Notes under the pieces: model-generated
The model's database searches: none
What the model was told of the DNA's origin: nothing
The model's input: only the letters and a program-made list of their open reading frames with translations
In this document: positions 2 through 52,583 of the stretch, one piece after another
Numbering within the stretch: position 1 is the first letter of the stretch
How the letters are laid out: every line of letters begins with the position of its first letter
Translations under genes and position numbers: made by a program
Virus record (IMG/VR): IMGVR_UViG_3300010371_000043
Location: 1-52,583 of that record
Origin: a virus
Length of the DNA stretch: 52,583 nucleotides
Direction: 5' to 3' (one strand)

Positions 2-805
2 CTGGCGACCCAGCGGATCGACAAGTTGCGCCATAACTTCGGTCAGATCGGCCTGCTATATGCGCAGTACCTCGGCATCAACCACGCCGCGATCCTGCAG
101 CAGGTCACCAACGCGGCGCTGGCGTTCGAGCAGTCGCTACGGAGTACGCAGGAAGAACGCCTCTGGATCGCGATGTGCGCCTGTCTGGTGGTGGGCGCCG
201 AACTCGGCAACAAGATGGGAGCCTCGTTCGATCCGCCCGCGCTGCGCGCCTTCCTGCTCGACGTCTACGCCAAGCAGCGCGCCATCCGGGACGCCTCGAA
301 CCTGCGCGCCGGCAGCAAGGACAGCGCCGAGGATATCCTGACGTACTACCTCAAGGCCAAGGTCGGCCGGAAGCAGTGCATCTGGACCGAAGGGCTGGCC
401 GCGGCGTTCGGGCGACCCAAGGACATCACCGTGCTCGGCGAGCCGCCGGCCAACACCCAGAACGATGGTCTCATGGTGCGCTTCAACGTCACCACCAGAC
501 AGATCATCTTCTCAAAGCGTGACTTCCACGGTTTCTGCCAACTGAACAAGTTCGCCTACCAGATCACGGAGGAGAGCCTGATCAAGGACTATGGCGCGTC
601 GCTGCAGAAACTGCTCCTAGGTGCGGGCACCAGCTACAAGCTCCTGCGCGAGCCCTGTATCGTGATCCCGACCCCTCCGGGAAGCGACCTAGAAGGGATG
701 CTCATGAACCGATCGGGACAGGCGACCGCCGGTGCGTCTGAACCGAACCCCTTAGACACCGGCATCGGAGCCCCTGATGGCAATATCGAACAAAGCCCTG
801 TTTAG
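2..805 (+). CDS. C-terminal fragment of a large phage replication-type protein (helicase/primase-like, DUF927-like?)
   Basis: The frame is open from the first base of the window, so the gene begins outside it; the TTG at 26 is only the first possible internal start. About 267 residues are visible. The N-terminal half is helical and reads like the end of a helicase/primase-associated domain (HNFGQIGLLYAQYL, then ERLWIAMCACLVVGAELGNK). The C-terminal half has a winged-helix look (DILTYYLKAKVGRK). The tail is Pro/Gly-rich and probably disordered. I associate this architecture with the C-termini of large phage DUF927-type proteins, but no Walker or primase motif lies in the visible part, so the function is inference. 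It overlaps the next gene by 29 bases. Its missing N-terminus and the broken gene at the other end of the window suggest that replication genes lie in unsequenced DNA between the two ends. Confidence 0.5.
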   Translation: MATQRIDKLRHNFGQIGLLYAQYLGINHAAILQQVTNAALAFEQSLRSTQEERLWIAMCACLVVGAELGNKMGASFDPPALRAFLLDVYAKQRAIRDASNLRAGSKDSAEDILTYYLKAKVGRKQCIWTEGLAAAFGRPKDITVLGEPPANTQNDGLMVRFNVTTRQIIFSKRDFHGFCQLNKFAYQITEESLIKDYGASLQKLLLGAGTSYKLLREPCIVIPTPPGSDLEGMLMNRSGQATAGASEPNPLDTGIGAPDGNIEQSPV

Positions 806-11954: not shown

Positions 11955-14684
11955 TTAGACTTGGGCGAGGGCCTTGACGGACGTGCCCACTTGGATGTTG
12001 GAGATTGGCACGCGCGCCGTCACCTCGAAGTACCACGTCTCGTGTTTGGTATCGCCAAGGATACGCAGCAACTCCTGCGGCTTGCGAATTTCCCGCACCG
12101 TGATCAGCACGTCGTTCCCGGAGAACACCCTGATGAAACCGTACCGATCGGGAGGAAGCGTGTTCCAGAACGGGTCGTCGGTGGCATTTTCGGCCCGCAC
12201 GGGATTGAGCGCCGGCGTGCCCGGGGGGATCGTGAACTGGATGCGCATGGCAGCGAAGTTCTTCCGCGACCCCTGCTGCAGCTTCTTTGATCGCCACGTG
12301 TAGACGGTGCTCACCGGCGCCGGGTCGGAGAAGTCGTAGTAGTAGATCGCGTTGTTCTGGATAAGCAGAGCAACCGCTGACCAGTGATCAATGGTGAGGT
12401 TGTCCAGCAACAGTCCGTTCGGATTATCGAGTAGGTTGAACCCAATGCGGTGCCCACCCGGCTGAGGCCAGATCGTAAAGCTCTGAGTATCTGTCGAGCT
12501 AAGCTCGATAGTAAAGCCCCTGTCAGCCTCGCTGGCGTCACCATTGCGAATACTCCCCATGGCAAAATATTGCGAGACGAGGAAGATCGCATTGAGGTTC
12601 TTCTGCGAAGTGAGTTGTTGCCACTTTTCGCGCGTGATCCACGTTTCACTGGTGTTCATTACCTGACCGAACTGCGTGACGAGGATCAGCCCGTTTCGCG
12701 AGGCATAATAGACCCCCGTGGTATTGCCGAGGATGCTCTTGCGCGAATGGCAGGGTTCACTGTTCTGAACTTTCACTGTTGACATGGAGCCCGGCGCAAC
12801 GCCTGTGGCGATGTAGGGGGCGCCAGTCGTGCAGGCGACGACACTCGATGCGGTGACGCCGAGACCGACGATCGGATATTCGGTCGTCAACGTATAGGAC
12901 GCAGGCCACGCGTGCGGCCGATACGGTTCGGCGAACCAGATTTCATTGCCGACCCAGCCGACGGACATTCCGTTCGGCATGGAGATAATCCCCTGCAGAC
13001 CGGGCGGCGGTGGGGTCCATAGCTGGCTCTGCAGTTGGAAGTTCCCCACGATCACGTCATCGGTGATGATGTCGGAATACACCGCTGTGGAGATATCCAT
13101 GTCCGCGATCCAGAAGAACGTCGTCGGACCCGCCTGCGAGGTGATGGTGCGGTAGAGGCGAATTTTCGTGAGGTTGCGGACGACGCCAAGCTGATCGGGT
13201 GGCGGCTCGAACAGATTGATGGTCCACGTCCCATTCGACCAGCCGGTCTCTACCGTCGCCGGGCTGGGGGCGCTCTCCTCGTCATATTCGGTGAGATACG
13301 TGTAGACGTAGCCGCGCGCCTCCAAAACGGACGAGGACGTGAGATCGCCCCACACTTGCAACTCGGCGAACCCAACCGATAGTTGATTGATCACCGGCGG
13401 GGCGCCGTTCGCGAACGTGTTCAGGCTGACGACGCCCTTCGAGCCAGCGTCATCGGCGACCTGCACCGAGAACGCCGTGTCGGTCATGTAGCCGATCCAG
13501 TATTGCACATTCATCAAGAGCCCAGTCGGGTTGACGAACGCGCTGGATACCTGTGCGCCGGCGGTGACGCCCGTGACCAGCGCACCGAGATTTTGTAGCT
13601 CGTGCGGCGAGCCATTGAGATCGTTGTAGAGCACCCCCACGACCTGTGCCGCGGTGTTGGTGGACGCCGGCATGAGCGTGATGTCGTTGAGGATCATCGC
13701 GCCCTGCGGCGTGATCGGCACAAGATAGAGAATATTAGACCCGGGGTCCCCTGTTTTGGTCGACGTAGTCGTCGGGAAGCCAAGCGTCACTGCATCGCCG
13801 CCGCCGCTTACCGTCACACCGGGCGCGCAGCCGGGCGCCGGGACGCCGAGGAGCCACGCCGGCTGGCCTGCCTCGATGCGGGCGCGGGTGTTATACATCG
13901 GGGGTAGGGAAGGGCTGGCGAAATAGTAGCGGTCGAACGTGTCATCCACCACCGGCGATCGCATAACGTCGGTGTCGGGATCGACGAACTCCATCCAGAT
14001 GCTGGCGCCCGTGATCGAGCTATCGAATGTCTGGTTGAGGCCGCCATTGAGGACGCTGGTGGCGTTACCGCCGTTGGTCCACTGCATCCGCACGCCGCCG
14101 GTGCTCTCGCTTACCGTCGTGGTGTTATAAGCAGCGCCAAAGGTCGGTGCATTCACTTGGATGCGCACCGGCCCGATGGCGAGAATATTAGTCGTCTGTG
14201 GCGAGGTCTGATCAATCGCGGGGTTGGCGATGGTGCCCGTCCCGTAGGAGACACCCTCATTGGTCGCAAGACCGTTATCTTGCGTCAAGGCCGCGAACAG
14301 GTTGGTGGCCGCGTTCACGGTGCTCCCGCCGATATTCACGTCATAGGCGTTTGTTACCGTGGCGGTAAACTTATAGGTTTCCTCGCCGATGAAGACCGTG
14401 TCGCCTTCGAGTGGCGTCGACAGGAATGTGAGGAGGGCGGTCGCCACCGCCTGCACCGTCGAGGGCAGGCGGTACGCGAATTTGGCGGCGGTGTTCGTCA
14501 GGTTGCGCAACAGCTTCGGCTGACGCCAGCCGGCCAGTTCACCCGAGAAAAGATAGGTGTCCAGCGCCGATGTGGCTTGGCCGTCCGGGAGTAATCTATC
14601 CGACCACGCGGGCAACTGCCCCCCAAATTGTTGTAATTTAAAGCTGTCCGGTTTCGACGGCGGATTTGGTCCCTGCTGCGCCAT
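11955..14684 (-). CDS. Large tail (nozzle/hub-like) structural protein, 909 aa
   Basis: A beta-rich protein typical in size and composition of the large tail proteins that close the short tail of podoviruses. Elements I recognise from such proteins include EARGYVYTYLTEYDEESAPS (~residue 455) and IWFAEPYRPHAWP (~590), then VASRNG-like blades (GVYYASRNGLILVTQFGQV) that suggest a propeller. The C-terminus (AAMRIQFTIPPGT; WYFEVTARVPISNIQVGTS) is beta sandwich-like. No enzymatic motif is seen. Its first 47 bases overlap the end of the endonuclease VII-like gene upstream. Confident as a tail structural protein; the nozzle assignment is inference from size, context and motif memory. Confidence 0.7.
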   Translation of the reverse strand: MAQQGPNPPSKPDSFKLQQFGGQLPAWSDRLLPDGQATSALDTYLFSGELAGWRQPKLLRNLTNTAAKFAYRLPSTVQAVATALLTFLSTPLEGDTVFIGEETYKFTATVTNAYDVNIGGSTVNAATNLFAALTQDNGLATNEGVSYGTGTIANPAIDQTSPQTTNILAIGPVRIQVNAPTFGAAYNTTTVSESTGGVRMQWTNGGNATSVLNGGLNQTFDSSITGASIWMEFVDPDTDVMRSPVVDDTFDRYYFASPSLPPMYNTRARIEAGQPAWLLGVPAPGCAPGVTVSGGGDAVTLGFPTTTSTKTGDPGSNILYLVPITPQGAMILNDITLMPASTNTAAQVVGVLYNDLNGSPHELQNLGALVTGVTAGAQVSSAFVNPTGLLMNVQYWIGYMTDTAFSVQVADDAGSKGVVSLNTFANGAPPVINQLSVGFAELQVWGDLTSSSVLEARGYVYTYLTEYDEESAPSPATVETGWSNGTWTINLFEPPPDQLGVVRNLTKIRLYRTITSQAGPTTFFWIADMDISTAVYSDIITDDVIVGNFQLQSQLWTPPPPGLQGIISMPNGMSVGWVGNEIWFAEPYRPHAWPASYTLTTEYPIVGLGVTASSVVACTTGAPYIATGVAPGSMSTVKVQNSEPCHSRKSILGNTTGVYYASRNGLILVTQFGQVMNTSETWITREKWQQLTSQKNLNAIFLVSQYFAMGSIRNGDASEADRGFTIELSSTDTQSFTIWPQPGGHRIGFNLLDNPNGLLLDNLTIDHWSAVALLIQNNAIYYYDFSDPAPVSTVYTWRSKKLQQGSRKNFAAMRIQFTIPPGTPALNPVRAENATDDPFWNTLPPDRYGFIRVFSGNDVLITVREIRKPQELLRILGDTKHETWYFEVTARVPISNIQVGTSVKALAQV
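14353..14369. promoter_or_regulatory. Dispersed palindrome copy 3 (one mismatch), intragenic
   Basis: GTTACCG-TGG-CGGTAAA: the last base departs from the consensus. It lies inside the 909-residue tail gene, encoding FTATVT. The imperfect arm may mark a decayed or weaker site. Confidence 0.45.
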
Positions 14685-21860: not shown

Positions 21861-22592
21861 TCACTGAATAATTATCGAGCGAGCACGAAAAATAGGCGGT
21901 GGCGTCACACCGTCAGTGAGCGATACAGCCAACGCGCTCCACCGTCCGACGGTCGAGCCGCCCTCCGCAGTGGTAGTCGTCGGGCCGCTCTGAACTGCAT
22001 AGTAGAGCCCGAAGTCCGAGCGGTCGGAGCCCACGGCGGGCTCCTGCGGATTATCCGCTAGGAAGACATAGCCGGTACCGGCTTGATCCCACGTATGCTG
22101 AACCGTTGACCCCACCGCGAGAAGGATCAGATCGTTGACGTTGGAGAGGATTACCGGGGAGGCGGTCGCCTGTGAGGCGCTGTTCGTAGGGTTCTGACCC
22201 GTCGCCGTGCTTTGGGGGTTCGGATCAAACGGCGCATTGATGTTGACGCCGTCGACCGCACATGTGAAAATTGAACACGTGCCCGGGGCGGCATTCCATG
22301 TCAACGTTGCCGTCGCGTTAATCGGCCCGATCGGCGCGCGGGCCCGCCACATCGTCAGGGTCACATACCGCCCGTTCGCATCAATCGGAAAGAACACATC
22401 CGTCGGCCCCTGCCATGTTAGGCCAGCCGTATCGGAAACATGCGTCGATGCAATATTTGCGAATGACGACGAACAACACATGGCAAAGAGCAAAAGAAGT
22501 TGGTTGTTCTTAGTTGTCTGGATCGGACAGGTGTACGTGAGCGCCGACCCGTTGGTGCCCCCTTTCTTCGGTCCTATAAGAGTGAAGCTCAT
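21861..22592 (-). CDS. Fibre-cluster beta-rich protein, 243 aa
   Basis: A beta-rich protein ([21 protein letters not shown]-like strands; [20 protein letters not shown]) ending [17 protein letters not shown]. Overall it looks like a jelly-roll or concanavalin-like accessory domain often found with tail fibres. Three cysteines occur near position 40 and after 100. It lies between collagen-like fibre genes and starts in an ATGA overlap with the upstream gene. No catalytic motif recognised. Confidence 0.65.
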
Positions 22593-23362
22593 AGGCGGAT
22601 CGCTTTCAACGACACGGTGACCTGCGTGATCGCCGAACAGCTAATAACGTAGGCCGCCACGATATCGCCGGCGTTCAGGTTCTTAGACCAGCCCGGGAGC
22701 GTCGCATCTTGCATCTTGTTGCTGGACGTGATGGTGAGTGGTGCACTGCCGGTGATGCTCTCGGACGCACCGGGGATCGAAGGTGTGTTGACGTTGACAT
22801 ATGCCGCCTTGCGAATATCGATCACGCAACTCCCGCTCGTGTTCGCGATGATCGTCCCCTGCTGAATTTGGCAATTGCACGGCACTTCAAGATACGTCAC
22901 CGAGCCGGCCGCAAGGGTCGCGTTGAAGCCATCGAGCACCCACTCAATACCCATGAGTTGCGTCGGGCCGGTCGGGCCAGTGTTGCCTGTGGCGCCCGTG
23001 ATCCCGGTAGGGCCTGTGGGACCGCCGCTGGGGCCGGTCGGGCCAATCGGACCAATAAACCCGACGCCGGGGGCACCCGTCGCGCCGGTGGCGCCCGCTG
23101 GGCCCGTAGCGGCAGCGCCGGTCGATCCCGGGTTTCCGGGAGGGCCTGTATAGCCGGTCGGACCCGTCAGGCCGCGTGATCCGGTCACGCCGGTCGGGCC
23201 GGTGCCGATCGGGCCGGTGGGGCCGGTAAAGGACTGGCCTGTGGGACCGGTCGCGGCAGCGCCCGTAGCACCGGTGGGGCCGCCGCTGGGGCCGGTGGGA
23301 CCGCGTGCAACGACAACCGGTTGCGCCATAATCTGGGCTGGTTCTAGCTGTTGGACTGTCAT
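22589..23362 (-). CDS. Collagen-like fibre protein with C-terminal beta domain, 257 aa
   Basis: N-terminus ~1-20 ([19 protein letters not shown]), Gly-X-Y collagen-like repeats to ~136, dominated by GPT and GAT triplets, then a globular beta domain (~137-257: [59 protein letters not shown]). Both the start (AQPVVVxxGPTGP) and the C-terminal domain are clearly paralogous to the 297-residue protein at 24343, so the pair arose by duplication. The C-terminal domain resembles the tips of other phage fibres. Probably a trimeric fibre or side fibre. Confidence 0.75.
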
Positions 23363-23363
23363 G

Positions 23364-24341
23364 TCAGCACACCACCGTTCCGAATTGATATTTGAAGCCG
23401 ACGATCGGCGCGGTGACCACGGCTTCTATCGCCACCCACGATTTTCCGGTCGTCAACGTACCTGTCGTCGCCCACGTCGCTGCATCGGTCGAGCCGATGA
23501 CGCCCTGTGTCGCCGTCCCTCCACCAATACAGATGAAATATTTAAGAAGCCCTGCTGAATAGGTGATGCTGAACCCTTGGGGGGACGCACCATCATTCAT
23601 AGCGTGGGTCGTCCACGTCGAGCCGTCGGCAGAGGCAGGTGCGACCGCCCCCTGCATGGCGACGATGAAGCCGCCCGCACCAACGATGGCGCACATATCG
23701 TGGTGGTTACCAGTGTTAAGCGGTGCGTTCGACGAGTGGGCAGTCCATGTCGTGCCATCCGGCGACGTCGCGCTCTTGTTCGTGCTGAAACACGACGTAC
23801 AGAATAGCGCGAGCACCGGGTCCCATGCCAACGCCTGCAGGGACGTCATTGGGGGCGTCACGAGGCTCCACGACGTACCGTTGGTCGATGTCGCAAGCTG
23901 GTGGGTGCCAGAATTCGACATCGCAACAAGGACGCCCTGTGAGGGCGACCATGCGAGCTTCTGCCACGTATTCTGCTCACCGATCGCGTGCGCGGTCCAC
24001 GCGAGCCCATCAGTTGAGATCGCAGAGTTGCTCGCCTGTCCGGTGTTGTTGCTCACCGCGACAAACGCACTCAGCGCATCAATCCAGATAACCGTACACC
24101 ATCCGATCGTGCCATTGATCGCGGCGGATGAATACGTCCACGTCACACCATCTGATGACACGGCAGTATGGCCGTTCGTCGCGTTGACGGCGCACCACTG
24201 CCCAAGCGTGTCGGAGTAACACATGTCCGACCAGCCGGACGATGCGTTTCCGTTGAGGCCAGTGTTCGTTGTCCACGTCGACCCGTCCGGCGTCGTCGCC
24301 GTGGTGCCATCGGATGCGAGGATGGTAACTGCGGTCGTCAT
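23364..24341 (-). CDS. Seven-repeat Asp-box-type beta-propeller protein, 325 aa
   Basis: Seven regularly spaced repeats of the form S/T-x-D/N-G-x-T/S-W are visible: [62 protein letters not shown]. This is the Asp-box pattern of sialidase-like propellers and predicts a seven-bladed fold. Sialidase catalytic residues (Arg triad, Tyr/Glu) are not apparent, so binding, probably of glycans, is more likely than hydrolysis. It is placed between two paralogous collagen-like fibre genes with 1-2 base gaps, and is presumably part of the same host-binding apparatus. Confidence 0.75.
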
Positions 24342-24342
24342 T

Positions 24343-25236
24343 TTACGACCTCAGAACTTTGAGGCCCACCGTGCAGCGTGTGATTGTCGCGGCGCTGGTC
24401 ACGTTGAACCCGAGCACCGTCCCGGCCGCGACCGCCGTGGTCCATCCCGAGAGAGTTGCGTCCTGCGCCTTTTCGGCCGACGAGATCGTCAGGGGCGCGC
24501 TCGCGCTGATTTTGTCCGCGGTTGCCGGGTGCGTCGGCGGCGCGAACGCCGAATAAGTACACGCATCGATCTCAACGACGATCGACCCGCTCTGATCGGC
24601 AAGGAGGGTTCCCTGCTGGATCGTACAGGCGAAATCGACTATCAGGTATCCTTTGATACCGGTCGTGATCGCTGAGCCGCCGCCGTCGATGACGAACTGC
24701 AGACCGGCGACCTGCGCAGGGCCGGTTGCGCCAGTCGGCCCGGTGCCTCCAAGCCCGGTCGGGCCGGTGGGGCCCCCCGATGGCCCGGTGTTACCGGTGG
24801 GCCCGGTGACGGTCGAGGCGGGGCCGGTTGGACCCGTCCCCAGCGGGCCAGTCCAGCCCGTATAGCCGGTCACGCCCTGCGGGCCGGTTGCGCCAGCGCC
24901 GGTGGGGCCAGTGTTGCCGGTGGGACCCGTGAGAGTCCCCGTCGGGCCGGTGGGACCAAACCCTGTCGGACCGGTGGGACCCGTGAGGGTCCCCGTCGGG
25001 CCGGTCGGGCCGGGCACGGAGGGGCCGGTGTTGCCGGTCGGGCCGGTGATGCTGCTGGCGGGACCCGTCGCCCCGAGCCCTGTCGGGCCGGTGGGGCCGG
25101 TCGCCGCGGCGCCGGTTGCGCCTGTCGGCCCGGTAAAGGACGCGCCTGTGGGGCCGCCGGCGGGGCCGGTGGGACCAAGGACGACGACAACCGGCTGAGC
25201 CGCGATAGTCGCCGGGGAATTTTCGGAGACAGCCAT
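24343..25236 (-). CDS. Collagen-like fibre protein, 297 aa (paralogue of 22589-23362)
   Basis: The start ATG at 25236 overlaps the stop of the upstream gene (TGATG). A short anchor ([20 protein letters not shown]) is followed by ~150 residues of Gly-Pro-Thr-rich triplets, then a globular C-terminal beta domain ([59 protein letters not shown]). Several near-identical DNA blocks encode the triplets, so copy number may vary by slippage. The C-terminal domain type is widespread in phage tail proteins. Likely a trimeric fibre with its tip at the C-terminus. Confidence 0.75.
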
Positions 25237-25619
25237 CAATCCTCCGTGACGCCTTGGCGCACAAACACGTGGCCGGTCATCAACTGCACGCGGATCGCCG
25301 GCGAGGACCCATCGAACATGATCAGGTCATAGACATACTGGCCGACCGGCAGATCGGTATCGATCGTGGTGTCCGGCACATTCATGTGAAGCACACGCTG
25401 CACCAGATCGTCGACGACGATGGTGCCGCCGGCGGACGTGAAAGTCGCCAGCGGGGTTGTGTCGTTGTGGCTCGCCTTGATTTCGAGCTTGAACGATTGC
25501 CCGGTAAAGTCCCACGACGTGTCGCCCACGACGCCGAACTGAAACGCGTCGCTCCATGTCGCGTTGTTCGGGATCACGATGTCGACGAGAGCCGCCGTTG
25601 CGCCGCGAAGCTGGGTCAT
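25236..25619 (-). CDS. Fibre adaptor-type beta protein (BppU N-terminal-like), 127 aa
   Basis: The start at 25619 overlaps the previous stop (TGATG); the longer frame is rejected. It is a compact beta protein: [75 protein letters not shown]. The G.Y.YDL...D.......L..G...V pattern matches the N-terminal adaptor domain of baseplate/fibre proteins such as BppU. Here it is a separate gene and probably links the collagen-like fibres to the tail. Confidence 0.65.
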
Positions 25620-28471: not shown

Positions 28472-28855
28472 TTAATTGCCGAAGACAAGCCAAGACGCCG
28501 TGGTGGATGCGCCACCAGCGTTCAACTTGGCGGATGAAGTCGTGACGTCGAAGGAGAAGGCATCAGGTGCGGGACTACCGAAGCCGCCCATAACCAAACC
28601 AAGGGTCGCGTTCGGGAACGCGGGCCAACTCACCGAAACATCTGTTCCAGCGGGTAAAGACACGGTGCCTCCGAAGAAGATCAAACCTGCGGGGGCCGAA
28701 GCGCCCGTAGGTCCTTGCGAACCTGTCGCCCCGGCTACGCCAGTCGGACCCGTCACACCCACACCGGCTTCGCCGGTCGGACCTGTCGAACCCACACCAG
28801 CAGAGCCAGCGGAGCCGGTAGGACCTGTGGGACCTGTGAAGTTTGGACCGGGCAT
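28472..28855 (-). CDS. Collagen-like capsid-associated (head fibre/decoration) protein, 127 aa
   Basis: Residues 1-57 are collagen-like triplets ([20 protein letters not shown], then [16 protein letters not shown]), starting almost at the N-terminus. Residues 60-127 are a small beta domain ([34 protein letters not shown]). Lying between scaffold and capsid genes, with its own leader hairpin, it is most likely displayed on the head, as a head fibre or decoration protein. It is shorter than the tail collagen-like proteins and not closely similar to their globular domains. Confidence 0.7.
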
Positions 28856-34367: not shown

Positions 34368-35054
34368 TTAGCGGCTGGGGCTCGGGCCTCCATGGGAGAT
34401 TTTGAACCACGCCCCCGTCAGGCCGATGAAGATACCGGTCTGGTTGGTGCCGGTCAGGCCCGTGACGCCGGTGTAGTTGAAGCCGGTCATGCTGACCGCC
34501 CCCGTCCCGCCGTTCGCGTTCCAGATCGCACCCGCAATGCCGGGGTCGACGCTCGGCGGTTTCCACACCGTTGTGGTGTTCAGCGGGCCGTAGCGGCCGG
34601 CGTAATCGCTGGCCACGCCGGTCGGCCCGGTGACGCCGGTGGCGCCGGTGGCCGAAGCCGCACCCGTTGCACCCGGCAAGGACGAGCCGCCCGTCGGGCC
34701 GGTCTGCCCGGTCGGTCCGGTGGCGCCGGTGGTCCCGGTGTTGCCGGCAGGTCCCTGCGGACCCTGATAGCCGGTCGAGCCGGTCGGACCCGTATTCAGG
34801 ATGCCGGGGCCGGTCGGGCCTACGCCCGTTGGGCCGGTCGGGCCAGTAAACGCCGCAGCGCCACCGCCCGTTGGTCCTTTGGCCCCGGTGGGGCCAAGCG
34901 GACCCGGGATGTTCTTTGCGTTGATCAGGTCGACGACTTCCTTGAGGGCCGCCGGGATACGGTTGTCGTCGTAGGTCATGTGGACGTCGGTGTCGTTCCG
35001 AACATCGGGGTCCGGTGTAACCGGGACCCCGAAGACGCTGTTTCCTACTGCCAT
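34368..35054 (-). CDS. Collagen-like protein, 228 aa (head/neck fibre candidate)
   Basis: An N-terminal anchor of ~50 residues with a short helix ([19 protein letters not shown]), Gly-X-Y repeats at ~50-148 ([20 protein letters not shown]), and a small beta C-terminus ([20 protein letters not shown]). The helix [10 protein letters not shown] matches [10 protein letters not shown] in the next collagen-like protein, so they share an attachment element. Placed between the portal and scaffold genes. Many triplets are Gly-Pro-Thr, and the Thr could accept sugars from the adjacent glycosyltransferases. Confidence 0.7.
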
Positions 35055-35066
35055 GTCAGCCTCCTA

Positions 35067-35576
35067 TTAACCGGCCGAGACGGTGAGGACGCCCGCGTTC
35101 ACCCAGACCTGTCCGTTGGCATGCGGGTCGGAGGTCGGCGGGATGATGACGATGCCAACGGTGCCCGACGGCCCGGTCGGGCCGGTTGCTCCGGTGGGGC
35201 CAGCAGGACCTGCAGGACCGACAACGCCGGTGCCCGTCGGGCCGGTGGGGCCGGTGACGCCATTGGCGGCGCCGGTTGCGCCTGCGGCGCCCGCGGGACC
35301 AGTGGCGCCGGGCCCTGTCGGTCCGGTGACGCCCGTGATGCCCTGTACGCCGTTCGGACCCTGCGGTCCGGGGACTGAAATGTTGGTGCCGGTCGGGCCG
35401 GTGCTGCCGGCAGGGCCGGTGTTGCCCGTCGCGCCGGTGGAGGCGCCGGTCGGTCCGGCTGGGCCGGTGACGCCGGTGGGGCCGCCCACGCTGCCATTGT
35501 TGATGACGTCGACCACCTGCTTGAGGACGCTACCCAGCATGTTGCGGTCGTAGTTGCGTGAGCTAAGAATTGCCAT
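35067..35576 (-). CDS. Collagen-like protein, 169 aa (head/neck fibre candidate)
   Basis: Anchor [20 protein letters not shown] (helix [12 protein letters not shown]), ~110 residues of Gly-X-Y triplets rich in GPT/GPA, and a short beta tail ([20 protein letters not shown]). The anchor is related to that of the 228-residue neighbour; the tail is reduced. It lies directly after the portal gene. The ~90-base gap to the portal stop has no other gene. Confidence 0.7.
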
Positions 35577-38070: not shown

Positions 38071-38349
38071 ATGGACCAGCACGGCGCGTTCACCTACTGG
38101 CTCGGCAACGGCACGGCGGCAGCGGCGATCGTTGGCACATTGCTCGGCTGGGCTCCCGCAATCGCCGCCGTCATCGCCGGCGGCTGGTACCTTCTACAGA
38201 TGTACGAGAGCAAGACCGTGCAAGGATACGTGCGGGACCGCCGCATCCGCAGGTTGGCGCGGCTGAAAGCCTCAGCGATTATGTTGGAGGCGAAGCTCAA
38301 GCACGCCGAGACCCCGCTGCCGCCCGAGTTCACAACCCCGTCGCACTAA
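38071..38349 (+). CDS. Holin-like membrane protein, encoded against the surrounding operon (92 aa)
   Basis: The only rightward gene inside the leftward late region. AAAGGGG lies ~8 bases before the ATG. An N-terminal segment and one long hydrophobic stretch (AAAAIVGTLLGWAPAIAAVI to AGGWYLLQMYE, residues ~16-46) could be one or two membrane helices; a basic cytoplasmic tail (YVRDRRIRRLARLKASAIML) follows. This shape, including the LLQMYESKT transition, is typical of small phage holins. It is convergent with the terminase large gene (stops overlap by 4 bases) and divergent from the portal gene. It probably needs its own promoter in 37970-38070. Confidence 0.65.
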   Translation: MDQHGAFTYWLGNGTAAAAIVGTLLGWAPAIAAVIAGGWYLLQMYESKTVQGYVRDRRIRRLARLKASAIMLEAKLKHAETPLPPEFTTPSH

Positions 38350-39800
38350 GTCCAGCCCAGCGCCGATACCCGCTCGCGCTTCTTTCCGCGCGGGCGTAGT
38401 CGTCTGGTGATCTCCGGGACGACGCCGCCATGCACCACGAGCGAAACGTACTGCAGGTCGTCAGCGACGTGCGAGAAGCCCTCCGCGTCGTTCTTGTCGG
38501 GGACAGTGCGCAAGGCCCCCTGCTTCGTTTTCGTAAAACGATAGCCGCCAGCCATAGCGCGACACAAGAACGGGCACCCGCGTCTCGATATCATTAATGT
38601 AGGTCCACCGTTCGTCTGACGCGTGAGTAGGGCCTCCACAGCGCGCAACCTCGGCTCGATATCGTTCGTTGGTGCTGGAAAAGCCGGCAGGCCAAGCCTC
38701 GCCAGCGCGTCGAAGCAACTCTCTTCCGAGACGTTGCCCTTCGCAACACCAGACGGATCGCCCACAACGGCAACGCGGTAGCCAAGATATCGGTTCGACA
38801 AAAGGGCCGGGCGCAGGCTCTGATTGATGTGTTTCTCCAAACCAACGTTGGTACCGGGCACTTCCTGCAGCACCAAGAGGCGTCCCATATGATCCATCTG
38901 ACAGATAAGTGACCATGGATTTCTCCCGAAGTCTTGACCAACCAGCAGCGGGTAGCCGGGGATCGGCATGACGTCATCGACTATGTGAAAATCTGTACGA
39001 AACGAGTTCTTGAACACAGCGGCGCCGCTGGGGTCGTCGCCGTACTGGGCCTTGACGTAGCGGCGGACCCAGTCGCTGTCCTCGCCGTACATTTCGACGA
39101 ATCGCTCGTAATACTTGCGCCCCTGCGCAAGTCGCGCCGGGTGATCCACAGGGAGCGACATCGACGCTTCATTTTGCACCAACCAGTTCAGGTTCTCGGC
39201 GTTCGGCGCGAGCCCGCTCGGCTGTCGGAAGATCGACCAATTCGGCCGCGGGTTCTCCATGAATTCATGCCACGGCGTCATTTCTGTCGGGAAGTTCGTA
39301 TCAGCCACGAGGCCGTACCACGAAGGAGTACCGTCGTCACCAGAAGGATAACGACCGAGACGCCCAGAGATAGGACCAATAACATCGAGGTCCATTTCAA
39401 TGCACTCTGACAGCCACGCGCCAGTAAGCTGCATAGACAGCAGACGCGACTGGTCCTCAGCATTTTCCAGCGGGATGAACACCCATTCGGATCGCACATT
39501 GTCGAACTCCAAATGGAAGGTGTTCTCGGAGACCTTCCAGTTGCCGAAGCCGCGGAGCCACTGCTGGCAATCCTTGAGCACGGTGTCTTTCAATTGCTTT
39601 AACGTCTGCCGCACAATCGCGTGGCGGGTGTGCCGGATGCCGTCCTTGCCGGGCGCCTGCACCGAGGAGCGTTTCAGCAACTCGATGACACACGCGGTCG
39701 TCTTGCCGGAACCGACCGGCCCGGCAATGAGCCGCCCGAAGGCTTCTGACTTCATAAACCGCGCGCAGGTGGGGGGAGCCGTGTAGTTCAGTTCAGCCAT
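38346..39800 (-). CDS. terL: Terminase large subunit
   Basis: 484 residues. ATPase: Walker A GPVGSGKT at 27-34; the Walker B-like strand is GAWLSECIEMD, with Ser in place of the usual Asp/Asn before Glu. Nuclease (RNase H-like): acidic residues in LLVGQDFGRNPW, RVAVVGDPSG and SHVADDLQYV. The enzyme pumps DNA through the portal and cuts concatemers. The length is typical. It follows the metallophosphoesterase gene with 3 bases between, and the candidate small subunit lies just upstream. The N-terminal KSEAFGRLIAGPVG and this gene order suggest a T7/N4-like rather than siphoviral packaging system. Confidence 0.92.
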   Translation of the reverse strand: MAELNYTAPPTCARFMKSEAFGRLIAGPVGSGKTTACVIELLKRSSVQAPGKDGIRHTRHAIVRQTLKQLKDTVLKDCQQWLRGFGNWKVSENTFHLEFDNVRSEWVFIPLENAEDQSRLLSMQLTGAWLSECIEMDLDVIGPISGRLGRYPSGDDGTPSWYGLVADTNFPTEMTPWHEFMENPRPNWSIFRQPSGLAPNAENLNWLVQNEASMSLPVDHPARLAQGRKYYERFVEMYGEDSDWVRRYVKAQYGDDPSGAAVFKNSFRTDFHIVDDVMPIPGYPLLVGQDFGRNPWSLICQMDHMGRLLVLQEVPGTNVGLEKHINQSLRPALLSNRYLGYRVAVVGDPSGVAKGNVSEESCFDALARLGLPAFPAPTNDIEPRLRAVEALLTRQTNGGPTLMISRRGCPFLCRAMAGGYRFTKTKQGALRTVPDKNDAEGFSHVADDLQYVSLVVHGGVVPEITRRLRPRGKKRERVSALGWT

Positions 39801-41785: not shown

Positions 41786-42153
41786 CAGTGGACCTTGTCT
41801 TCCTTCAACGGGCATTGCTTGAGGAGACAGGCAAGCTGACGCGCGTTGCCCGTCATGTCGGCGACACTGGCGATCAGGGCACACTGCGCCTCCAACACGT
41901 GCGCCGGGTCGAGGTAGCCCTCGTCGCAGGCCGCCTTGATGTTCGTCATCAGCCAGAGCTTGGCAGCTTGAGAATACGCCTTGACGGCGGCGTCGGCGAT
42001 CTGGGCGAACTCGCCGCGGGTGGTCTTGCGGTCATATGCGTCGATCAGAAGCAGCATGGCCCCGGTCTGCAACCGCGCGATCGTCTGCGGGGAGACCTCG
42101 GTGGACAGTGCTTCGACCATGAACTCTTCGTCGACAACCGGGTCGGCGGGCAT
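41785..42153 (-). CDS. Helical hypothetical protein (122 aa)
   Basis: The start MPADPVVDEEFMVEALSTEV at 42153 overlaps the upstream stop (TGATG). All-helical: SPQTIARLQTGAMLLLIDAY, EFAQIADAAVKAYSQAAKLW, and a Cys/His-containing end (EAQCALIASVADMTGNARQL). No motif recognised. The position before the terminase genes suggests a packaging or regulatory accessory. Confidence 0.6.
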   Translation of the reverse strand: MPADPVVDEEFMVEALSTEVSPQTIARLQTGAMLLLIDAYDRKTTRGEFAQIADAAVKAYSQAAKLWLMTNIKAACDEGYLDPAHVLEAQCALIASVADMTGNARQLACLLKQCPLKEDKVH

Positions 42154-42722
42154 CAGGCATTTCCTCCACCAGTGGCAAGGGCCGTAAGCATCACAAGCGC
42201 AGCCTCGCGGTGCACCGGGTCCATACGGTATCCAACCCCCCACACGGTGAGGATGTCGAAATTGAAAGGTTTCAGCTTTTTACGGAGATGGCAGACCATG
42301 ACATCGACCATCTTCTGGTCGGTCGGCTCCTTGTTCGTCCCATACATCAGCCGCGTGTGTTCGATCACGTCGTGCAAGGTTTGTTTGGAGACTTGCTGGC
42401 GCTTGAGGACGGCGGTCAGCAGGGCGGATTGGAGGCGGGTAGTTTTGAATTTCACGGAGCAGAGAAACTTGACCTGCTCCTCGTCGTTCAAGATATTGTG
42501 ATCCGATTGTGATCGGTTCGCGCGTGGCGATCCCGGTGGCCAGTCGTCCTTGGGGATGTCGACGATACGCCCTTCGAGCAGCGCGGTGGTCAGTATCTCG
42601 TAGACGTCCGACCCTGCTACCCTGATCGCCCGGGCGATCGCCCGAACTGGGATGCCCTCGTCAGCAAGGCGGATGGCGATGTCTTCTGGTGATGCGGCGA
42701 CAGGCTGGACGTCTGCTAACAT
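42153..42722 (-). CDS. OmpR/PhoB-type winged-helix transcription regulator without receiver domain (189 aa)
   Basis: The start MLADVQPVAASPEDIAIRLA has GGGAG upstream. The N-terminal part (EDIAIRLADEGIPVRAIARA to YEILTTALLEGRIVDIPKDD) is helix-turn-helix-like. The C-terminal ~95 residues are an OmpR-type winged helix: LQSALLTAVLKRQQVSKQTL, then MVDVMVCHLRKKLKPFNFDI and ILTVWGVGYRM, where the VWGxGYxM ending is the wing signature. No phosphorylation receiver is present. It is first in the packaging operon behind a strong promoter-like sequence, so it may be the late-gene regulator. Its binding site is unknown. Confidence 0.7.
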   Translation of the reverse strand: MLADVQPVAASPEDIAIRLADEGIPVRAIARAIRVAGSDVYEILTTALLEGRIVDIPKDDWPPGSPRANRSQSDHNILNDEEQVKFLCSVKFKTTRLQSALLTAVLKRQQVSKQTLHDVIEHTRLMYGTNKEPTDQKMVDVMVCHLRKKLKPFNFDILTVWGVGYRMDPVHREAALVMLTALATGGGNA

Positions 42723-42750
42723 GTGATGCGGCTCCCACTGACCGGAGGGG

Positions 42751-42780
42751 AGCATAAGTTAATTTTCTCGGAACTGTCAA
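42751..42780 (-). promoter_or_regulatory. Sigma70-like promoter for the regulator/packaging operon
   Basis: On the minus strand: TTGACA (42780-42775), an 18-base spacer and TATGCT (42756-42751). The -35 is a perfect consensus match. Transcription would begin about 42745, giving a ~20-base leader before the regulator ATG at 42722. It is the best promoter sequence I can see in the late region and suggests recognition by host RNA polymerase. Confidence 0.6.
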
Positions 42781-44719: not shown

Positions 44720-44869
44720 GATGTAGACCTTTCAGGGTGAAGAGGCGGCCGCCAATCGGCCGGCTCACACTCGCCGCGTCGAACGGCCTGCAAGGTGGTA
44801 GCGCTCGACAGTTACACTGCCCTAGGCTAAAAACTGAGCGATTAAGCCATGCGCTCTAAACACGTCTAA

Positions 44870-45474
44870 AATGTCCAATAAGTGTCCAATCTGGTTTGGA
44901 CACTTCTTTGTGAGAGATTTCAACCACTTAACCCCTAAAAGGCATAAGTGTCCAGTTTTTTTGAAAACAAGACCCCCTACGTAGCACCTTCCTACCCCCT
45001 ACCCCTCCCCCCCCCTCCAATACTTCTTTAACCTTTGGCAGAAAATCGTCCGGCAGAAAAATATCTGTCTTTGTAAATAGTATTATTAGGAGAACAAAAC
45101 ATAAACACAGCTACTATTAGTGGTATGGCCTCGAAAAAGGTGAAAAGGTTAAAATTCTATTCGGGTAGGGGGGAGGGGTGGGGGGTAGGTAAGCCCGAGG
45201 TAGGGTCATTTGTTTTCAAAAAGTTGGACACTTGGACACTTATATACCATTTTACCACAACGCACTTGCACCATCACGTCCCCGTTACCTGAGCTACGCT
45301 CCCAGCACATAGTGCCCACGACCTCAATAAGTGTCCACCGCAAATTACGCTATACCTCGATACCACATGGCTGGCGCTCTCCGAGCCGCGCTCTGCCGCT
45401 CTCCGTCGCTCGATAGCGGTATCATGATATAGCAGATTATCGCGTGGACACTTTCGCGACCATTGGACACTTAT
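44870..45474. repeat. Iteron-like repeat family, consensus TTGGACACTTAT
   Basis: Copies in both orientations. Forward (TTGGACACTT type): 44896-44905, 45224-45233, 45232-45243, 45445-45454 (partial), 45463-45474. Reverse (ATAAGTGTCCAA type): 44870-44878 (partial, AATGTCCAA), 44878-44890, 44944-44954, 45327-45337. Two forward copies overlap by two bases. Such clustered 10-12-base repeats are typical of initiator or repressor binding sites. Confidence 0.75.
44946..45240. repeat. Long imperfect inverted repeat with C-rich and G-rich tracts
   Basis: The left arm (44946-45036) and right arm (45143-45240) are reverse complements over ~90 bases with interruptions: each has AAGTGTCCA, then a T-run, GAAAACAA, a pyrimidine tract (left CCTACCCCCTACCCCTCC; right the complement, 45163-45189 as GGGTAGGGGGGAGGGG), then a TTTAACCTTT-type element. 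The ~105-base centre is AT-rich. It could extrude a cruciform; the G-rich strand of each arm could also form a quadruplex. Confidence 0.7.
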
Positions 45475-46302: not shown

Positions 46303-46315
46303 TGGAGGTGCTGTG

Positions 46316-46558
46316 ATGCGTGGCCGTCCGAAAGCAGCCGCTACCATGCGGCACACCGCAATCGTATTGCCAGAAACCTTGCTAACTCGGCTTAAGGAGG
46401 CTGGGGCGGCAAGTGGTCGTGGGTTCAGTGGCGAGGTGCGTCACCGCCTGATTGCGAGCCTTGAACAAGGTGACGTGGTAGATCGACCGCGGCTTGCTCC
46501 TGCGCAACGGGACTACGTGGTCAACATCGTCAAGGAAATGGTGGAGGGCTTGCGATGA
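46316..46558 (+). CDS. Ribbon-helix-helix (Arc/MetJ-type) DNA-binding protein (80 aa)
   Basis: MRGRPKAAATMRHTAIVLPE: the beta strand MRHTAIVLPE and helices LLTRLKEAGAASGRGFSGEV and RHRLIASLEQ form a ribbon-helix-helix domain; the basic N-terminus adds DNA contacts. A C-terminal helix (RDYVVNIVKEMVEGLR) may mediate oligomerisation. GGAGG is 7 bases upstream. Arc-type proteins bind palindromes as dimers of dimers, making it the most attractive phage-encoded candidate to bind the dispersed GTTACCG dyads, though this is not shown. Confidence 0.75.
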   Translation: MRGRPKAAATMRHTAIVLPETLLTRLKEAGAASGRGFSGEVRHRLIASLEQGDVVDRPRLAPAQRDYVVNIVKEMVEGLR

Positions 46559-51969: not shown

Positions 51970-52320
51970 GCTGCTCACCAACAATCGCGGTGAGATCGCT
52001 GCCGTGCCGTCCCGCGATTGTCCCATCGCAGCCACAGACGGGCGCAACATCATCATCAATCCCGATAGGTTTTTCTCGCTGCCGCTGCCGCAGCGCGTGT
52101 TCGCTATCGGCCATGAGATCGTTCACAACGTGTTCAATGACGTGCAGTTCCTGCACCGCTGCGCGCTGGCAGGGCAAGTCCCCATGAGCGACGGCACCAC
52201 GCGGCCGTTCATCAACAAGATGATGCAGTACGCGATGGACTACCGCATTAACGCGCTGCTGGTCGACAGCAAGATCGGCCAGCCGCTGCCGGGCATCTGC
52301 CTTGATCCTGCGGTCGGCAA
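51821..52320 (+). CDS. DUF2201-type putative metallopeptidase, truncated by a sequence junction
   Basis: The ATG at 51821 is preceded by GAAAGGAGC. The visible ~167 residues are the N-terminal putative metallopeptidase domain (DUF2201 type): GRNIIINPDRFFSLPLPQRV, then the zinc motif HEIVH at 98-102 and the helix MMQYAMDYRINALLVDSKIG. Full-length members continue into a von Willebrand A domain that would partner the MoxR-like ATPase. At ~52310-52327 the sequence changes to an unrelated bacterial gene on the opposite strand. The frame stays open to the window end only because that antisense frame happens to lack stops. Partial gene. Confidence 0.75.
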
Positions 52321-52583
52321 GGCCGACGAGCTCGAGGATTTCCTCGGCGCGGCGATTGCGCTCCCGGCGCCCCACTCCCTGGTAGTACAGCGGCAGCGCC
52401 ACGTTCTCGGTGGCGTTCTTGAACGGCAGCAGGTTGAAGGACTGGAAAACGAAACCCAGCATCTTGTTGCGCAGCCGCGCAGCCTCGGTCTCCGCCAGGT
52501 TTGCGACCTGCTGGCCCGCGAGCAGATAGGTGCCGCTGTCATAGGCATCGAGAATGCCCAGGATGTTCAGCAGCGTGGACTTG
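52311..52583 (-). CDS. Fragment of a bacterial LolD/MacB-type ABC transporter ATPase
   Basis: Read on the minus strand from the window end: KSTLLNILGILDAYDSGTYL (the end of Walker A and following helix), then the Q-loop KMLGFVFQSFNLLPFKNATE, then NVALPLYYQGVGRRERNRRA and EEILELVGLADR. This is the canonical order of LolD/MacB-family ATPases that drive lipoprotein or efflux transporters. After ADR the expected LSGGQ signature is missing: the sequence reverts to the phage gene. Both ends are incomplete. It is cellular rather than viral DNA and is probably joined by assembly error or a rare recombination. Confidence 0.85.

Follow-up and report, generated by a model that had tools for sequence, protein, structure and literature searches.

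A Repeat Array Between the Divergent Gene Arms of a Phage Family as a Probable PICI/SaPI-Like Replication Origin

Genome Context of the Array Region

The DNA analysed here (hereafter the window) is the whole IMG/VR viral record IMGVR_UViG_3300010371_000043 (52,583 bases), an incomplete phage genome encoding an SU10-like portal, a terminase and a major head protein. Its array region lies between structural genes, which run leftward, and replication genes, which run rightward, these gene directions bearing out the location between divergent transcription units that had been proposed from the sequence. While the leftward arm carries structural genes, the rightward arm includes genes for an AAA ATPase, a DUF2201 metallopeptidase, a family A DNA polymerase, a PD-(D/E)XK nuclease and an SNF2 helicase, and a PrimPol-DUF927 protein (about 1,035 aa) is encoded near its end, where the two arms converge; the middle of the rightward arm is missing from the window. 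Long relatives measure about 57–69 kb, several of them with terminal direct repeats (e.g., G005 and G009), as would befit complete genomes assembled in circular form. Among named phages, the TM3_14A group of Rhizobium phages comes closest (TerL 51%). No similarity of the window to named phages was found at the DNA level, and scans of bacterial and archaeal genomes (84,980 species genomes) turned up no prophage form. The features discussed below are the following (window coordinates):

26–805, + strand: end of the PrimPol-DUF927 protein (C-terminal 259 aa), the proposed initiator, recognised by homology to the full-length protein
42153–42755, − strand: gene of a CtrA/OmpR-like regulator (Pfam Trans_reg_C; NCBIfam CtrA 3.3e-5, below cut-off), a rival candidate reader of the repeats
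44867–44878 (− strand, three mismatches), 44878–44889 (− strand, exact) and 44896–44907 (+ strand, one mismatch): left outer iterons
44918–44930, + strand: IHF-consensus-like site with one mismatch, TTTCAACCACTTA
44944–44955, − strand: left inner iteron, CTGGACACTTAT
44944–45036: left arm of a large imperfect inverted repeat, with a C-rich tract at about 44991–45018
45023–45160: AT-rich core (33% GC, the lowest of the window), proposed melting region
45140–45149, − strand: conserved element GTGAAAAGGT (ACCTTTTCAC on the − strand)
45144–45243: right arm of the large imperfect inverted repeat, with a G-rich tract at about 45163–45189
45224–45243, + strand: right inner iteron doublet, two copies 8 bp apart, TTGGACACTTGGACACTTAT
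45327–45338, − strand: iteron, GTGGACACTTAT
45444–45455 (three mismatches) and 45463–45474 (exact), + strand: right outer iterons

Several observations concern the genome at large. At its right end, positions 52304–52583 carry in antisense a piece of a bacterial ABC-transporter ATPase (best NCBIfam match 4.9e-26), with the junction inside the phage DUF2201 gene; this is a chimeric contig end or some other rearrangement, so that this edge is not to be trusted. In the window the terL gene (38346–39800) is on the − strand, as it is in some relatives, whereas others have it on the + strand; this corresponds to an inversion within the structural arm, recurring between lineages. The strongest coding repeats, both in the window and in related genomes, are collagen-like G-P-T repeats in genes of the structural arm (22589–25239, 28472–28855 and 34368–35576 in the window). 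Finally, the GANTC motif (CcrM/HinfI site) is nearly erased in the window (3 sites vs. 232 expected); about half of the related genomes have 0–5 sites (vs. roughly 190–320 expected), and the others are partly depleted. Considered alongside the CtrA-like regulator and the kinship to Rhizobium phages, this loss points to alphaproteobacterial hosts and to strong selection against GANTC.

Repeat Array and AT-Rich Core

Nine TTGGACACTTAT-like sites in both orientations are clustered at 44867–45474 (starts and strands: 44867−, 44878−, 44896+, 44944−, 45224+, 45232+, 45327−, 45444+ and 45463+), of which three are exact, three have a single mismatch, one has two and two have three, just as the original prediction had described (nine full or partial copies within about 600 bases). 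That the repeat is absent elsewhere in the window also holds: when the whole record is scanned with at most one mismatch, all six sites found (6/6) fall inside the array and the reversed-pattern control yields none, while two-mismatch matches outside the array occur only at 14553, 38905 and 49739. In an unbiased 9-mer scan allowing at most one mismatch, the array ranks first among 77 scan windows (10 copies vs. 3 elsewhere; Poisson −log10P 16.5), the Poisson score having been adopted because a ranking by excess count was swamped by the collagen-like coding repeats.

The copies bracket, as had been proposed, an AT-rich centre and an imperfect inverted repeat, the arms of which (44958–45036 and 45144–45222) are 76% complementary over 79 nt and are extended by 44946–44966 and 45213–45233. 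Over the whole record, every 200-bp window below 45% GC starts between 44881 and 45081, hence the claim that this is the only extended AT-rich DNA of the window is correct. The C-rich and G-rich tracts of the two arms (44991–45018 and 45163–45189, respectively) might fold into G-quadruplex or triplex DNA next to the core, and C-runs like the one in the window's arm also exist in three relatives (G004, G012 and G029). Rfam and tRNA searches returned nothing.

Repeated motifs near AT-rich DNA are also known at pac and partition sites, and those of the array might bind a terminase subunit, a partition protein or a recombination protein, but we regard a packaging, partition or recombination site as very improbable. 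Among the proteins searched, none was recognisable as the product of a partition gene, the array lies 5 kb from terL and stays in place while the orientation of terL varies between relatives, and the lack of a prophage form in the genomes scanned also speaks against such a site.

Equivalent Arrays in Related Genomes

Relatives of the window (about 30 usable genomes or contigs) were gathered by ATPase and TerL scans. The literal TTGGACACTTAT repeat is absent from most syntenic relatives, which at first sight would go against the original prediction, for which such an absence counted as a refutation. Yet, most relatives have at the same place (about 4–7 kb upstream of the ATPase gene, usually the genome-wide GC minimum, and in most of them a divergent region) a short repeat of their own that is rare or absent elsewhere in the genome concerned. 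Since equivalent arrays replace the literal repeat, reading its absence as a refutation would be misleading. The words of these arrays are:

G003, G004 and G012: GGACATTTA
G015: GACATTTGG
G010: TGACATTTA
G008: GGACATTA (weak)
G001: TTGACTAAT
G005: GACCAATTA
G006: CAGCTAATA
G007: TAGACAG
G009: AGCATTTC
G013: CTGCTATGC
G024: TTTGGCATTT
G030: TAATGGGAC
G035: TATTCGC
G025: CCCACCATTTTC (12-bp unit, in inverted tandem blocks)
G022: ATTGTACAAT (palindromic)

In the relative G029, whose TerL is 91% identical to that of the window, the aligned sites are kept with GTGTCCA changed to GTGGCCA, and the IHF-consensus-like site at 44918–44930 is conserved between two such changed iterons. The word thus differs between relatives while the copies are alike within each genome, which suggests that the sites and their reader co-evolve; origin site and reading protein seem to change together quickly. 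Other properties of the arrays are shared. The commonest spacing between same-strand iterons is 8 bp (seen in ten genomes), and the two-arm layout around an AT core recurs in most relatives with a looser symmetry, the mirror symmetry of the copies being weakly supported (pooled p 0.017; window alone p 0.68). Hexamers enriched across the arrays are mostly AT-rich words. Four relatives (G011, G016, G017 and G023) have no clear array at the syntenic place, and the best cluster of TM3, which belongs to the isolated Rhizobium phages, falls in a nearby co-directional gap of low GC (near 19.4–20.1 kb), outside the divergent region. In the Pseudomonas phage Rollin (L357), another isolate, the strongest repeat cluster is the palindrome-forming AAAAGGTAGCAAGTTACTACCTTTT, situated in AT-rich DNA at the start of the record (1–800).

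Base composition skews do not help to locate an origin here. GC skew, which had been suggested as a check, is uninformative in this phage family, as it is inconsistent among the genomes and does not mark the array in the window; the AT skew flips at the array region in most genomes, but it follows gene direction.

Host-Factor-Like Sites and Other Recurring Elements

Exact matches to the IHF consensus (WATCAANNNNTTR) number 18 in 29 array regions (vs. 1.3 in dinucleotide shuffles), with a density of 0.62/kb compared to 0.007/kb in the lowest-GC windows elsewhere, and nine genomes have at least one in their array region. The array of the window itself contains IHF-consensus-like sites with one mismatch only, and in many relatives the middle bases of the IHF-like sites seem to be under tighter constraint than IHF would need. 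In the 29 array regions, a second element (ACCTTTTCA) was counted 12 times (vs. 0.3 in shuffles). A DnaA-dependent origin was considered and rejected, TTWTNCACA being found once in the 29 array regions (vs. 2.5 in shuffles) and not at all in the array of the window. CtrA half-sites (TTAACC) are slightly above shuffles in the array regions.

The proximity of these elements to the iterons, and the position of the array in the divergent region of most relatives, would both suit an origin whose initiator also represses the divergent promoters, or is timed by them, so that replication and transcription would be coupled. We nevertheless find such a dual role improbable, given that no promoter is recognisable by consensus in the array region and that the best cluster of TM3 is not located between divergent genes.

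Candidate Reader of the Repeats

All complete relatives searched encode the PrimPol-DUF927 protein. When a profile of 20 such proteins was compared to solved structures, the matches were SCCmec Cch (5dgk, 8.8e-19) and SaPI Rep (8tch, 1.7e-18), and the top fold matches of an AlphaFold2 model (mean pLDDT 78) were again Cch (1e-19) and SaPI Rep (1e-16). For the fragment retained in the window (26–805; confident AlphaFold2 model, mean pLDDT 83), the sole significant PDB fold match is SCCmec Cch, and the model features at its C-terminus the strand–helix–helix–strand–strand succession typical of a winged helix. These matches make the protein a homologue of SaPIbov1 Rep and SCCmec Cch, with a predicted winged helix at its end; we refer to it below as Pri-Rep. 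In RHph_TM3_14A (L025; MN988472.1, 42239–45322), it is annotated as a “putative integrase”, even though by homology it is a replication protein, and the phage Rollin also encodes a relative, annotated as hypothetical.

Motif distances between genomes were compared to those of 16 protein families by partial Mantel tests, in which Pri-Rep came out best (r 0.67; partial 0.48, p 0.010 uncorrected), a correlation that is not significant after correction for the number of families and that weakens with one genome added (partial 0.26, p 0.087). This support for Pri-Rep as the reader is suggestive only. Along the protein, sliding windows give the highest correlation at residues 447–595 and 823–933, a result that is not decisive.

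Two other proteins encoded near the array were considered as readers. An Arc-like ribbon-helix-helix protein (46313–46558) was discarded, for it has neither a homologue in the relatives nor a Pfam match. The second is the regulator at 42153–42755, in which a resolvase-like HTH N-terminal part is combined with a CtrA/OmpR-like DNA-binding domain while a receiver domain is lacking, and which is possibly a mimic of the host cell-cycle regulator CtrA. If the array were an operator, a phage transcription factor, most plausibly this regulator, would switch the divergent units through the repeats. The place of the array between these units, the two orientations of its repeats and the location of the regulator gene, only 2 kb away and conserved in the clade of the window, are all compatible with such a role. 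However, the regulator was not found in the TM3-like clade, where arrays are present (G018, G020, G021 and G022), and its best conserved parts include the third helix of the C-terminal wHTH, yet the repeat word changes. Moreover, its distances correlate with motif distances no better than background (partial 0.19, p 0.20), while a promoter-like match in the array region is at chance level only. An operator array is thus unlikely in our opinion.

Proposed Mechanism and Implications

The original prediction had left the choice between an origin of replication and a repressor array. The former is now better supported and the latter less so: the phages encode a Rep-like initiator fused to a primase, iterons are arranged in two arms around an AT core next to IHF-like sites, and arrays persist in genomes devoid of the neighbouring regulator. 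We conclude that the array is probably the replication origin of the phage, similar to those of PICI/SaPI elements and read by the phage's own Pri-Rep fusion. According to this model, the C-terminal winged helix of Pri-Rep would bind the iterons (8–12 bp) to the left and right of the core, and Pri-Rep, i.e., a primase fused to a SaPIbov1 Rep-like initiator helicase, would assemble on each arm and melt the AT-rich core, presumably helped by the bending of the DNA by host IHF. Two forks would then start, one moving with the leftward structural arm and the other with the rightward replication arm.

Some of our results do not fit an origin as well. These are the four relatives without a clear array and the cluster of TM3 outside the divergent region, the separation of array and initiator gene (compared to PICI origins), the weakness of the symmetry, the silence of the GC skew in the window and the sensitivity of the distance correlation to one added genome.

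More tentatively, a phage family known mostly from metagenomes may use a satellite-type (PICI/SaPI) replicon as its main chromosome origin, with the iteron word and the initiator specificity rewritten in most lineages and the spacing, the AT core and the host-factor sites kept, as expected under an arms race with origin-directed antagonists or competing satellites; we consider this broader scenario conceivable but somewhat doubtful. If a phage group indeed has such an origin and a fused Pri-Rep, its replicon would form a link between satellites and phages. Besides, the candidate reader is orthologous across some twenty lineages that differ in their iteron words, and these offer a series for studying how a winged helix chooses its DNA, as well as for asking whether origins face antagonistic selection. 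Last, these mostly uncultured phages gain a likely origin and a likely initiator, the latter being annotated as “integrase” or “hypothetical” in their nearest named relatives.

Comparison with Known Systems

The alpha protein of phage P4 (ori/crr) unites primase and helicase in one protein, and its C-terminal domain reads short iterons. By description, it resembles Pri-Rep in domain plan, while the helicase family differs according to the searches made. Another phage primase, the PrimPol of NrS-1, has a fused C-terminal helicase and initiates synthesis on a specific motif of 8 bases, TTTGGTTA (PMC8718748). In NrS-1, nonetheless, it is a single-stranded template that is read, by the helical-bundle domain of the primase (PMC8718748), unlike the winged-helix reading proposed here, and its C-terminal region is a weak structural match to the phage protein (6lrb, 6e-4).

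The PICI/SaPI replicons (SaPIbov1; Gram-negative PICIs, PMC6092414) share with Pri-Rep a DUF927-type Rep initiator helicase, likewise have a primase encoded with or fused to Rep, and use an iteron sequence specific to each element; in SaPIs, Rep reads the iterons through its C-terminal domain (PMC7581432). In the window too, a Rep-type initiator helicase belongs to the same element as the array (C-terminus at 26–805). In contrast, PICI/SaPI origins are directly 3′ of rep, whereas the phage array is located about 25 kb from the PrimPol-DUF927 gene, in the divergent control region, with the repeat word rare or absent elsewhere, so that we do not file it as a strict PICI origin. Further differences are that the origin would be that of a 60–69 kb phage, that PrimPol is always fused and that the mirror symmetry is looser. 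As for the element itself, it is not a PICI, i.e., an integrated helper-dependent satellite, since it encodes a portal, a terminase and a major head protein of its own and the scans of bacterial genomes did not find it.

SCCmec Cch is the best solved-structure match of Pri-Rep by both sequence and fold, and Cch2 binds direct repeats downstream of its own gene (PMC7581432). This system differs in being a chromosomal cassette with separate proteins, few repeats and an origin beside the gene (PMC7581432). Finally, the turnover of the iteron word has a documented parallel in the Vibrio PLE, in which the RepA initiator and the iterons change together between relatives and an origin-directed nuclease exerts selection for altered iterons (PMC8263062), even though the PLE initiator is of the RepA_N type, without primase or helicase, and its iterons are larger and semi-palindromic, unlike those of the phages (PMC8263062).
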